Shown: positions 23,254-27,070 of the stretch, one piece after another
Numbering within the stretch: the stretch's first letter is position 1
Layout of the letters: the number at the start of each line of letters is the position of its first letter
Assembly: GCF_011603975.1 (NCBI RefSeq)
Contig: NZ_JAANNB010000013.1
Location: forward strand, 1 to 35,509
Reading direction: 5' to 3'
DNA length: 35,509 nucleotides
Origin: Cellulomonas sp. IC4_254
GTDB taxonomy: Bacteria > Actinomycetota > Actinomycetes > Actinomycetales > Cellulomonadaceae
Made by a program: the position numbers and the translations under genes
The notes under the pieces: model-generated
Told to the model about the DNA's origin: nothing
Databases searched by the model: none
Seen by the model: only the letters and a program-made list of their open reading frames with translations

Positions 23254-24813
23254 TCACCACTGGGAGCGCGCGTAGTCCTTGAGGAAGCAGCCGTACAGGT
23301 CCTCGCCCGCCTCGCCGCGGACGATCGGGTCGTACACCCGCGCGGCCCCGTCGACCAGGTCGAGCGGCGCGTGGAACCCCTCCTCGGCGAGCCGCACCTT
23401 CGTCGGGTGCGGCCGCTCGTCGGTGATCCAGCCGGTGTCGACGGCGGTCATGAGGATGCCGTCGGCGAACATCTCGCCCGCGCTCGTGCGGGTCAGCATG
23501 TTCAGCGCGGCCTTGCTCATGTTCGTGTGCGGGTGGCCGGGGCCCTTGTACCCGCGGGCGAACACGCCCTCCATCGCCGACACGTTCACGATGTACGTCC
23601 GGCGGGCGGGCGAGGCCGCCAGGGCGGACCGCAGCCGGCTGACCAGGATGAACGGCGCCGTCTGGTTGCAGAGCTGGACCTCGAGCAGCTCCATCGGGTC
23701 CACGCCGTCGACGGTCGCGACCCAGGAGTTCGTCTCCGCGACGTCCGGGATCAGGCCGCCGGCGTCGATCGACGTCCCCGCGACCAGCCGCGCCAGGCTC
23801 GCGGCCTCGGCGGTGAGCGACTGCGCGGTCAGCTCCTCCGCGGCGGCGCGTCCCGCCCGCTCGATCGCCAGCGCCGGGCTGCTCAGCTCGCTCACCGACC
23901 CGGCGAGCGCGCGCGGGTGCGCGTCGCTGGTGCGGCCGAAGGTGGTGATCATCTGCGCTGCGTCGGCGTCCAGCGGCGCGTCCTCGGCGTCGGCGATCCG
24001 CGCGTACGCGCCCGGCGACCGGCGCACGGTCTGCGCGGCGTTGTTGATGAGGATGTCCAGCGGCCCCTGGGCGGCGACGTGGTCCGCGAGCGAGACCACC
24101 TGCGCCGGGTCGCGGAGGTCGATCCCGACGACGTGCAGCCGATGCAGCCAGTCGGCGGAGTCGTCCATCGCGCTGAACCGGCGCACCGCGTCCTTGGGGA
24201 AACGGGTGGTGATCGTCAGGTCCGCGCCGTCGCGCAGCAGCCGCAGCGCGATGTACATGCCGATCTTGGCCCGGCCGCCGGTGAGCAGCGCGCGGCGGCC
24301 GGTCAGGTCGGTGCGGGCGTCCCGCTTGGCGTGGTGCAGCGCGGCGCAGTCCGGGCAGAGCTGGTGGTAGAACGCGTCGACCACCGTGTAGTCCTGCTTG
24401 CAGACGTAGCAGGCGCGCGGGCGCAGCAGCGTCCCCGCGATCGCGCCGGTCGCCGACGAGGTGATCTGGATGCCGGCGGTCTCGTCGTCGATGCGGCCCG
24501 GGCTGCCGGTCGCGGTCGCGGCGACCACCGCGGCGTCGGCCTCCGCGATGAGCCGGCGCTTCTCCCCGCGGCGGTGCTTCTTCGCGGCCTTGAACATCGC
24601 GGACGCGGCGCGCCGGGCGGCGGCGTGCTGCGGGTGCGTCTGCGGGAGCGCGGCGACCTGGTCGGCGACCCGCAGGAAGATGGCGAACTCGGCAGGGTCG
24701 ACGCCGGGCACGTCGGCTGCCGGGTCGAGGTCCGTGCCGGCCACGAGGTCGAGGTCCACGTCGTCGCCGGGCCCGTCCGGGTGCTGCGCGGGCGTGGTCG
24801 TCTGCGCGCTCAT
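23254..24813 (-). CDS. SDR-fold protein with N-terminal extension and zinc-ribbon cysteines
   Basis: This 519-residue protein is about twice the usual SDR length. Residues 1-130 are mostly helical and charged. Four cysteines (135, 138, 153, 156; CYVC and CPDC) form a likely zinc ribbon. The SDR domain follows: nucleotide-binding TGGRAKIG (178-185), NNAAQT (257-262), Asn383 and Ser412 in VNVSAMEG. At the usual YxxxK site the sequence is TNMSK, with Thr430 in place of Tyr and Lys434 retained; Tyr422 lies close by. The HPHTNMSKAALNM stretch resembles a little-studied SDR group that I recall from plants and fungi. An insertion of ~55 residues separates NNAAQT from the active site. The ATG start has AGGACGGACGG upstream. 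The substrate is unknown. Confidence 0.85.
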   Translation of the reverse strand: MSAQTTTPAQHPDGPGDDVDLDLVAGTDLDPAADVPGVDPAEFAIFLRVADQVAALPQTHPQHAAARRAASAMFKAAKKHRRGEKRRLIAEADAAVVAATATGSPGRIDDETAGIQITSSATGAIAGTLLRPRACYVCKQDYTVVDAFYHQLCPDCAALHHAKRDARTDLTGRRALLTGGRAKIGMYIALRLLRDGADLTITTRFPKDAVRRFSAMDDSADWLHRLHVVGIDLRDPAQVVSLADHVAAQGPLDILINNAAQTVRRSPGAYARIADAEDAPLDADAAQMITTFGRTSDAHPRALAGSVSELSSPALAIERAGRAAAEELTAQSLTAEAASLARLVAGTSIDAGGLIPDVAETNSWVATVDGVDPMELLEVQLCNQTAPFILVSRLRSALAASPARRTYIVNVSAMEGVFARGYKGPGHPHTNMSKAALNMLTRTSAGEMFADGILMTAVDTGWITDERPHPTKVRLAEEGFHAPLDLVDGAARVYDPIVRGEAGEDLYGCFLKDYARSQW

Positions 24814-24919: not shown

Positions 24920-25306
24920 CTAGAGGGCGTCGGGCTCGGCGGGCCGGAGCGTGCGCAGGATCGTCGCGTGCCGGACCAGGAACGCCCGCTCGTCCAGCCG
25001 CTTGCGCCGGAGCCACCCGGTGACCTCGTCGTTGTGCTTGCTCGCGTTGCACGACGCGCACGCCGGCACCACGTTCTGCAGCGTGTACCGGCCGCCGCGC
25101 GAGATCGCCAGGACGCAGTCCCGCTGCAGCGCGGGGGTCGCCGTCCCGCAGTACGCGCACGCGCCGCCCCACGCGGCGACGAGGTCGGCCCACTCCGCCG
25201 CGGTCAGGTCGTTGTCGGCGAGGGCGACGCGCCGCGCCCGCCGCTTCGCGTACCGCGCGCGGGTCGACGGGGAGGCCCCGGAGGAGACCTTGCGACGGCG
25301 GACCAC
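24920..25306 (-). CDS. HNH endonuclease-like protein with an atypical active site
   Basis: The 128-residue protein has a basic N-terminus and an HNH-type zinc-finger region: Cys50/Cys53 (CAYC), [19 protein letters not shown] and [11 protein letters not shown]. Spacing fits HNH_5-like proteins, in which the second Cys pair completes the zinc site. The residue expected to be the catalytic His (DHV..S.GG) is Cys64 here, read from a clear TGC codon; Asn78 and His91 remain. Nuclease activity is therefore uncertain. The GTG at 25306 stands 6 bases after a TAGCGT hexamer, so the transcript may be leaderless. It is a solitary gene, divergent from the cold-shock gene, with no methylase or integrase nearby. 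Confidence 0.8.
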
Positions 25307-25406
25307 GCGGCGACGCTACCGCCCGCCGCCCGGGGGCGGTTCGTCCCGCGCCGCCGACCGGTGGACACTGGAGGCAGCAACCGCCATCACCACGAGGAGT
25401 ACCACC
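25307..25406. promoter_or_regulatory. Divergent promoter region of the HNH and cold-shock genes
   Basis: On the minus strand TAGCGT (complement of 25313-25318) lies 6 bases from the HNH GTG. On the plus strand TTCGTC (25340-25345) and GACACT (25364-25369) are 18 bases apart and may drive the cold-shock gene, leaving a leader of about 31 bases. The second pair is a weak match. Confidence 0.4.
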
Positions 25407-26366
25407 GTGCCGCAGGGAACCGTCCGCTGGTTCGACACCGAGCGAGGGTTCGGGTTCATCGCGCTCGGCGACGACGCCGAGGACCTGTTCGTCCACGCGT
25501 CCGAGATCGTCGGCCAGGACGGCTCGACGTCGCTCCGCCAGGGCCAGTCCGTCGAGTTCGAGGTGGGCGAGAGCGACCGCGGCCCCCAGGCGCGCCAGGT
25601 CCGCGTCACCGGTGACGTCGCCCCGGACGCCGCGCTCGGCGTGCTGGGCACGGTCAACTGGTACGAGCCGGCCAAGGGCTACGGCTTCGTCACCCCCGAC
25701 AGCGGCGACGGCGAGATCTTCGTGCACAGCTCCGCGATCGTCGGCGGGGGCGTGATCGTCGACGGTCAGCGCGTCGCGTTCCTCGTCGTCGAGGGCGAGA
25801 AGGGGCCGCAGGCCGACCACCTGCTGCCGCTCGGCGCCGACGCGGCCGCGGGCCCGAGCCGCGCCGCCACCAAGGACGACGGCGCCGACGGCACCGTGAC
25901 CTGGTACGACGCGGGCAAGGGCTTCGGCTTCATCACCCCCGACTCCGGGGAGCAGGACGTGTTCGTGCACGCGCGGTCGCTGTCCGGCGACCTGGCCGAG
26001 CTCGTCGAGGGCGACCGGGTGAGCTACCGGGCCTCGGAGGGCGAGAAGGGCCTGCAGGCCCAGGGCGTCCGGCTGGTCGGCGGCCCGTCCCGCGGCGGCC
26101 ACGGGGGCCGCGGCGGCGCGGACCGGCGGGACTCCGGCCGCGGCCCGGCGCCGCGCTCGTCCGCGCGCGGTGGCCAGGGCGTCGTGGCGCGCTACGACGC
26201 GGAGCGCGGCTTCGGCTTCATCACGCCGGACGACGGCGGGCCGGACCTGTTCGTGCACGTGTCGGTCCTGCAGCGCGAGGAGGCGCTCTACGAGGGCGAC
26301 CGCGTCCGGTACCAGGTGCGGCAGAGCGACCGCGGCCCGCAGGCCGACCGGGTCGAGCTGATCTGA
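25407..26366 (+). CDS. Protein of four tandem cold-shock domains
   Basis: This 319-residue protein consists of four cold-shock domains (CSDs): residues 1-68, 80-143, 162-225 and 256-319. Each has RNP1 (RGFGFI 13-18, KGYGFV 90-95, KGFGFI 171-176, RGFGFI 267-272) and RNP2 (LFVH 27-30, IFVH 104-107, VFVH 185-188, LFVH 281-284), so all four should bind single-stranded RNA or DNA. A Gly/Arg-rich linker (226-255, with RGG and SRGG) joins CSD3 and CSD4 and could add RNA contact. Bacterial Csp proteins usually have one CSD of ~67 residues. The GTG start is fixed by CSD1 and by the GAGGAG site upstream; the open frame before it is non-coding. Function as an RNA chaperone is inferred. Confidence 0.93.
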
Positions 26367-26372
26367 CCCGCG

Positions 26373-26409
26373 ACGGCCGGCCCGGGGCACCGCCGCCCCG
26401 GCCGGCCGT
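26373..26409 (+). terminator. Strong hairpin terminator of the four-CSD gene
   Basis: ACGGCCGGCC(C)GGGGC (26373-26388) pairs with GCCCCGGCCGGCCGT (26395-26409): 15 base pairs with one bulged C and a 6-base loop, beginning 7 bp after the stop codon. Only TT follows, so the T-tract is minimal. Confidence 0.7.
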
Positions 26410-26427
26410 TCCGGCATGCTGGCGGCC

Positions 26428-26986: not shown

Positions 26987-27007
26987 GTTGAGTGGGACAG
27001 ACTCAAG
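26987..27007. promoter_or_regulatory. HAIR element 1 (HspR binding site)
   Basis: GTTGAGT-N7-ACTCAAG matches the known HspR-associated inverted repeat CTTGAGT-N7-ACTCAAG at 13 of 14 fixed positions. It lies about 130 bp upstream of dnaK. With the hspR gene in the same operon, this shows classical negative feedback: DnaK aids HspR binding until misfolded proteins draw DnaK away. Confidence 0.93.
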
Positions 27008-27022: not shown

Positions 27023-27051
27023 TTGCACCGCGACCGACCGCGACGCAGACT
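27023..27051 (+). promoter_or_regulatory. dnaK operon promoter
   Basis: TTGCAC (27023-27028) and CAGACT (27046-27051) are 17 bases apart, a standard vegetative promoter spacing. The -10 overlaps the left arm of HAIR element 2, so HspR bound there would prevent RNA polymerase from binding. Confidence 0.6.
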
Positions 27052-27070
27052 TGAGCGCAGCAGGCTCAAG
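27050..27070. promoter_or_regulatory. HAIR element 2 (HspR binding site)
   Basis: CTTGAGC-N7-GCTCAAG is a perfect 7-bp inverted repeat with the HAIR spacing, differing from the consensus only by a symmetric pair of changes. Its centre is 63 bp from that of HAIR 1, close to six helical turns, so both would lie on the same face of DNA. Confidence 0.92.

Follow-up and report, generated by a model that had tools for sequence, protein, structure and literature searches.

In this study, we describe a gene that encodes a single protein of 319 amino acids with four complete cold-shock domains (CSDs), as the initial annotation had proposed, and not one domain as in the usual bacterial cold-shock protein (Csp). 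It lies in a stretch of 35,509 nt, referred to as the window, from Cellulomonas sp. IC4_254. The host genome is a 4.05-Mb draft in 407 contigs, and the window is contig 44. Judging from its sequence, the protein most likely binds single-stranded RNA (ssRNA) at several linked sites. With slightly better than even confidence, we read it as a multivalent ssRNA-binding protein that is probably made without a cold-shock leader switch. The features of the locus are summarized in Table 1.

Table 1. The four-CSD gene, its domains and linkers, and the flanking elements (positions within the window).
Feature	Position	Strand	Description
Gene of the four-CSD protein	25407..26366	+	319 aa; GTG start; stop at 26364-26366
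GACACT, predicted -10 element	25364..25369	+	within the RGGGACACTGG block (GGTGGACACTGG in the window)
Predicted ribosome-binding site, GAGGAG	25394..25399	+	from the sequence; ends seven bases before GTG 25407
CSD 1	25413..25607	+	residues 3-67; PF00313 78.0 bits
Linker 1	25608..25646	+	13 residues; length and sequence conserved
CSD 2	25647..25829	+	residues 81-141; PF00313 66.2 bits
Linker 2	25830..25886	+	19 residues; 11-23 aa over 63 orthologs
CSD 3	25887..26078	+	residues 161-224; PF00313 72.9 bits
Linker 3, basic Arg/Gly-rich tether	26079..26174	+	32 residues
CSD 4	26175..26360	+	residues 257-318; PF00313 70.1 bits; Arg instead of Trp
Strong G+C hairpin after the stop	26372..26410	+	no T run; from fold energy; possible terminator

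The Pfam CSD model (PF00313) matched the protein in four stretches of one continuous gene, with an E-value of 1.9e-83 and 274.7 bits for the whole chain. The cut-off of 27 bits was reached by each domain singly; the domain limits were taken from a purpose-built CSD profile. Pairwise identities among the four domains are 37-48%. Further OB-fold models were passed less strongly, i.e. OB_RNB (75.5 bits, cut-off 24) and S1CSD-TOTE-2 (38.7 bits, cut-off 27). The NCBIfam equivalog model for CspE (NF049933) yielded 257.3 bits versus a cut-off of 120, spread over four stretches, and the models for CspA, CspC, CspD, CspG, and the retron Se72 effector were likewise passed over four stretches. Because the score was taken to be a sum over four stretches, the CspE label was given no weight. 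Plasmid matches that covered 80% of the query were discarded, since they are places of about 200-300 bp hit by four pieces, and the most likely explanation is a single CSD that was matched four times over.

The reading frame stays open from a GTG further upstream, at 24951, through 26366. GTG 25407 was taken as the start because of the start codons of the orthologs, the conserved (G/A)AGGAG motif, and the coverage of the whole query by homologs. A start codon is found at the matching position in 66 ortholog upstream regions (63 distinct), with 59 GTG and 7 ATG codons, and (G/A)AGGAG lies within the final 20 bases in 59 of the 63 distinct regions. Among 1833 database homologs, almost all of the best 120 align over the full length of the query; Cellulomonas and a single Cellulosimicrobium entry are the named relatives nearest to the host genome.

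The domains had initially been annotated as showing no sign of degeneracy, a view that holds for the core motifs only. GFGF or GYGF (RNP1) and FVH (RNP2) are seen in all four domains of the window protein, and in all 63 distinct orthologs no domain has lost the RNP1 aromatic pair or the RNP2 His. The RNP2 Phe is also present throughout, except for a Tyr in domain 1 of 10 of the 63. The usual stacking set comprises seven aromatic or His positions, numbered after B. subtilis CspB (Trp8, Phe30, Phe38), and two of the seven have been lost in all domains. The Phe30 position, i.e. the last RNP2 aromatic, is Ala in domain 1 and Ser in domain 2 of all 63 orthologs, Val (35) or Ala (28) in domain 3, and Val (62) or Ala (1) in domain 4. 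The Phe38 loop position has no Phe, Tyr, or Trp in any domain of the 63 orthologs, and a His is found once, in domain 1. Phe, Tyr, or Trp occurs elsewhere in the loop in 2, 0, 4, and 3 of 63 orthologs for domains 1, 2, 3, and 4, respectively, so that in these few the aromatic may have shifted position. In domain 4, Trp8 is replaced by Arg in 63 of 63 orthologs; in domain 3, this position is Phe in 15 of 63.

Mean identities across the orthologs are 0.84 for domain 2, 0.825 for domain 4, 0.79 for domain 1, and 0.675 for domain 3. All 32 domain comparisons, made over 8 genome pairs, give a dN/dS ratio <1 (maximum 0.64), and all domains are therefore under constraint. The fixed, domain-specific replacements speak for specialisation rather than decay, and some domains could have stopped binding, given the loss of aromatics.

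The bacterial CspA family resembles the four-CSD protein in its fold, RNP1, and the FVH core, and the solved structures closest to it in sequence belong to bacterial proteins with a single CSD (5o6f, E 8.7e-19; 1csp, E 1.2e-13). The differences are the number of domains, one of about 70 residues versus four in 319 aa, and the stacking face: the reference single Csp of the host keeps F30 and F38, both of which the four-CSD protein lacks, so that the full seven-position set of a canonical CspA-type protein is absent. The fourth single-CSD protein of the host genome (L008, 1306-1740, minus strand) has a C-terminal extension, FLHA in RNP2, and Ala at the F30 position, as in domain 1 of the four-CSD protein.

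The linkers differ from each other. In 61 of 63 orthologs linker 1 is 13 residues long and in the other two 12, with conserved Thr, Asp, Gly, and Leu. Linker 3 spans 21-76 residues (median 30) and carries a net charge of +1 to +9 in the 63 orthologs; its median content of Arg plus Gly is 47%, versus 20% in linker 2, and it is free of aromatics in 62 of 63. It had been described as RGG-like, and a basic, Arg/Gly-rich tether before domain 4 is indeed conserved. The repeated RGG is not: the window protein has three RGG in linker 3, yet only 18 of the 63 orthologs have an RGG apart from that adjoining domain 4, and 45 have none, so that “RGG segment” is too strong a term and the repeats typical of RGG-box proteins are not found at the family level. 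The protein as a whole is acidic (pI 4.72, net charge -18), with the basic charge concentrated in linker 3 (pI 12 for 31 of its residues in the window protein). Taken together, the linkers suggest a layout of a three-domain unit and a tethered domain 4.

A Csp domain covers about six bases of single-stranded nucleic acid. In the proposed mechanism, each CSD would lay one such short stretch over its RNP1/RNP2 face. Because the stacking surface is thinned in each domain, single sites are expected to bind less strongly than that of a canonical Csp. The tethered layout would offset this weakness: domains 1-3 follow one another at short distances, and domain 4, on its flexible basic tether, could reach another stretch of the same or of a neighbouring RNA. 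The outcome would be a chaperone or coat that keeps mRNA stretches of some 25-40 nt open and works alongside the ordinary single-domain Csps. Ribosomal protein S1, which binds mRNA with tandem OB-fold domains of another OB family, offers a parallel in the way of working only, i.e. a row of OB folds on mRNA, and no homology is claimed.

Such avidity would be analogous to that of Unr, for which a KD of 32 uM was reported for CSD789, with two canonical domains, versus about 200-300 uM for the separate parts CSD78 and CSD9 (PMC7383231). More domains need not bind more tightly, because CSD456, with one canonical CSD, matches this construct (KD 16 uM; PMC7383231). According to a review, CSDs bind ssDNA much like ssRNA (PMC7825780), so that the ligand is not established as RNA. 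The strongly acidic charge of the whole protein counts against the reading as a multivalent RNA binder.

A possible, albeit unlikely, alternative is that the protein is a scaffolded, selective RNA regulator, in which weak or pseudo-binding domains, domain 4 foremost, would position the others or bind proteins, so that particular RNA layouts are recognized in a Unr-like manner. The lack of Trp in domain 4, the loss of two stacking aromatics in all domains with mostly fixed replacements, the nearly invariant length of linker 1, and the high conservation of domains 2 and 4 are all compatible with this alternative. However, the RNP1 pair and the RNP2 His are intact everywhere, unlike in the non-binding domains of Unr, which are described as lacking FGF and (F/Y)FH (PMC7383231). 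Linkers of 13, 19, and 32 residues also leave no space for extra pseudo-domains, and hidden non-canonical CSDs between the four were rejected for the same reason.

The comparison with animal CSDE1/Unr extends to several CSDs per chain and to the role proposed for it, that of a multivalent single-strand binder (PMC7825780). Unr is reported to consist of five canonical and four non-canonical CSDs (PMC7383231), whereas the window protein has four and no hidden ones. The sequence match is weak (2yty, E 7.4e-5), and the interleaved layout of canonical and non-canonical domains was not found. By these comparisons, the four-CSD protein resembles CSDE1/Unr in outline and is outside that family. On a still more tentative view, it might be an actinobacterial Unr-like protein with a rigid three-domain reader and a tethered domain 4 as scaffold or partner module (Trp to Arg), which would select mRNA layouts and, in view of the gene order with dnaK (see below), tie mRNA handling to protein quality control.

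To follow the history of the domains, we used a tree of 85 single domains and 65 columns, with the four-CSD domains represented by ten species. Domains 1, 2, 3, and 4 form four groups, with bootstrap/SH-aLRT values of 100/99, 100/99, 80/84, and 100/97, respectively. The same four groups are found in a second tree, in which one Saprospiraceae single domain joins group 3, and in a smaller third tree, with group 3 at 96/58. As the domains group separately across ten species, the duplications are old, in line with the initial view that the differing sequences of the domains reflect an old duplication. The deeper forks are not resolved by the trees because of the small number of columns.

The number of domains is also constant: among the best 120 of 1833 homologs, 119 have exactly four CSDs, and one entry of 251 residues has three. 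Single Csps are found in addition. The host genome contains four single-CSD matches on other contigs, and at least one single Csp match besides the four-CSD protein was found in 30 of 30 genomes tested; the search returned 2-4 matches per genome, one of which was domain 1 of the four-CSD protein itself in 11 genomes.

Actinobacterial multi-CSD proteins range from 3 to 6 domains, with five CSDs in Klenkia, four in Blastococcus, four or three in Modestobacter, three in the named Geodermatophilus entries, and six in five homologs. The loci and proteins with five, three, or six domains include L079, L080 (Klenkia), L081 (Geodermatophilus), P0130, P0135, and P0138-P0140. The Geodermatophilaceae (Geodermatophilus, Modestobacter, Blastococcus, Klenkia) belong to the same class and share the multi-CSD architecture, but their domains fall among the canonical single Csps (90/88); a six-CSD protein lies outside that group. 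Among 105 other homologs, the three-CSD (57) and five-CSD (8) proteins mostly retain the F30/F38 aromatics, unlike the window protein. Of the 57 three-CSD homologs, 7 have Arg in place of Trp in domain 2, and the five-CSD proteins have Phe in place of Trp in domains 2-4, while the four-CSD subset (35), which may include some proteins of the window's kind, has mixed residues. In a comparison bearing on a common or a separate origin of the Cellulomonas and Geodermatophilaceae kinds, no constrained tree was rejected (p-AU 0.17-0.37). The data contain hints of separate expansions, and within the class the multi-domain build may have originated on more than one occasion.

These results bear on a second alternative, namely that the protein is nothing special, i.e. 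a fused Csp array that performs ordinary RNA-chaperone work and has been kept by drift or dosage. The fold family and motifs shared with the single Csps, their co-existence in the same genomes, and the proteins with 3-6 domains in other actinobacteria are in its favour. We nevertheless regard it as doubtful: the four old, separate domain groups with their fixed specific residues are not interchangeable, and the count of exactly four domains is almost without exception.

Upstream of the gene, GA(C/G)A(C/A)T is present in 63 of 63 distinct ortholog regions, although this count is no independent test, because the motif was defined on the same sequences; the exact RGGGACACTGG occurs in 33 of 63. 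The motif begins 42-44 nt ahead of the start codon in 48 of 63 regions. Tied to the ribosome-binding site, it occurs once in its own genome, with a reversed control of 0. At other genes, 5 of 18 sites of GA(C/G)A(C/A)TGG are placed 5-8 nt upstream of a start codon, versus 0.33 expected; this count leaves out the upstream regions of the four-CSD gene and the loci fetched for the motif. TANNNT peaks at the same 5-8 nt spacing (110 versus 25). As the octamer thus sits where TANNNT peaks, the most plausible reading of the block is a -10 element whose first base is G; transcription is then predicted to start near 25376 and to give a leader of some 31 nt. Cold-induced genes of the cspA type have a long thermosensing leader of about 160 nt, for which the predicted leader would therefore leave no room.

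No conserved -35 was found in the 63 distinct ortholog upstream regions, and a scan found no classical -35/-10 pair (0.0 expected). Reading the block as an ECF-type -35 was rejected, since it has no conserved partner 16-18 nt downstream. The block is conserved upstream in L009-L078, Pseudonocardia included, and a G-first -10 without a conserved -35 is unusual at such conservation. A search of 9 genomes with the exact 13-mer TCNGGGACACTGG found no regulon sharing the block: there were six matches in four genomes, four ahead of the four-CSD gene and two at leaderless starts of other genes, with none in its own genome and three in the reversed control. Behind the stop codon, the fold of 26355-26425 has an energy of -43.3 kcal/mol (z -2.46), and 5 of 200 shuffles are equally stable; a scan for T-run terminators found none (0.3 expected).

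Downstream of the four-CSD gene lie first a GNAT acetyltransferase gene and then the dnaK region, with genes assigned from their sequences as dnaK, grpE, dnaJ, and a MerR-like regulator. Both the four-CSD gene and dnaK could be placed in 64 genomes. They are on one contig in 45 of these, and on the same strand in 40 of the 45. In 38 of the 45, dnaK follows the four-CSD gene in the same orientation at a distance of up to 100 kb, and in 15 of up to 2.5 kb; inside the 100-kb range it never lies upstream or on the opposite strand, and in seven genomes the two are further apart. The gene order is old and the distance variable, and order does not prove an operon or a functional tie. Two inverted repeats of the HspR type were found at 26987-27007 and 27050-27070, with one and two mismatches to the consensus of the HspR box (average in shuffles, 0.15); both lie ahead of dnaK and behind the four-CSD gene.

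On the other side, a small HNH endonuclease-like gene (24920-25306, minus strand) is divergent from the four-CSD gene. L010, L012, and L013, which are close relatives, have the same neighbour, and L018 has a match on the same strand (flanks of 1.5 kb). Another gene (23254-24813, minus strand) encodes a protein of 519 residues that combines a short-chain dehydrogenase domain with an N-terminal part lacking a domain assignment; this protein is 84-92% identical in five relatives (L010-L013 and L020).

No pointer to RNA polymerase was seen in the sequence or the neighbourhood. It is quite improbable that the protein is not an mRNA coat but an antiterminator, i.e. a binder of ssDNA or nascent transcripts at the polymerase, even though NCBI family names call related E. 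coli Csps antiterminators and CSDs are described as hardly discriminating ssDNA from ssRNA (PMC7825780).

The gene is widespread in the genus: 24 of 25 same-genus genomes carry it, 20 of them at full length in one stretch, which bears out the annotation as one continuous gene rather than separate single-CSD genes at the locus. In the remaining four carriers it is split or cut, i.e. in two pieces of one open frame (G007), partial (G013, G020), or in two frames with an internal stop (G012, a draft at 89% completeness). It is absent only from G004. In the order, matches at E 1e-30 or better were found in 54 of 396 genomes and 18 of 109 genera. In the class, 11 of 394 genomes had a match at 1e-25; seven of these are outside the order, three of them with a full-length gene. 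The only match in the phylum sample (1/396) was the window's own genome. Named carriers with 63-75% identity include Sanguibacter, Actinotalea, Oerskovia, Isoptericola, Promicromonospora, Miniimonas, Knoellia, Terrabacter, Serinicoccus, and Pseudonocardia. Outside the order, the spread is patchy and identities are still 63-68%, which would fit some horizontal transfer. An assembly error or a mis-join of tandem csp genes, conceivable for a draft of 407 contigs, is refuted, with a negligible residual probability, because six one-contig assemblies (G003, G006, G008, G011, G014, G021) and many named genera carry the same full-length gene.

A review describes bacterial Csps as having one CSD (PMC7825780), and a paper from 2015 states that CSD duplication was known in alphaproteobacteria only (PMC4551563). 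Caulobacter CspC and CspD and other alphaproteobacterial two-CSD proteins likewise carry duplicated CSDs on one bacterial chain (PMC4551563), but they have two domains rather than four and belong to another phylum. The rhizobial matches to the four-CSD protein (28-32% identity) have fewer than two CSDs each by our own profile and hence did not serve as a test. A dinoflagellate protein also has several CSDs on one chain, i.e. three repeats, but it is eukaryotic and carries an RRM; this comparison is by description only (PMC4863620). Among the matches listed in our literature search, which covered titles, abstract openings, and few subscription papers, no study of an actinobacterial multi-CSD protein was found.

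Automatic naming of such proteins as CspA or CspE calls for caution, as it may rest on summed domain scores. Textbook bacterial Csps have one domain, whereas some actinobacteria have four different CSDs on one chain, and this build is conserved. Four non-equivalent domains, as a conserved exception to the one-CSD rule, represent a natural test of how, through tethering and thinned stacking surfaces, affinity per site is traded for avidity or selectivity. Bacteria with one four-CSD gene and few single Csps would be a simple system for the multi-domain question that is posed by animal CSDE1.
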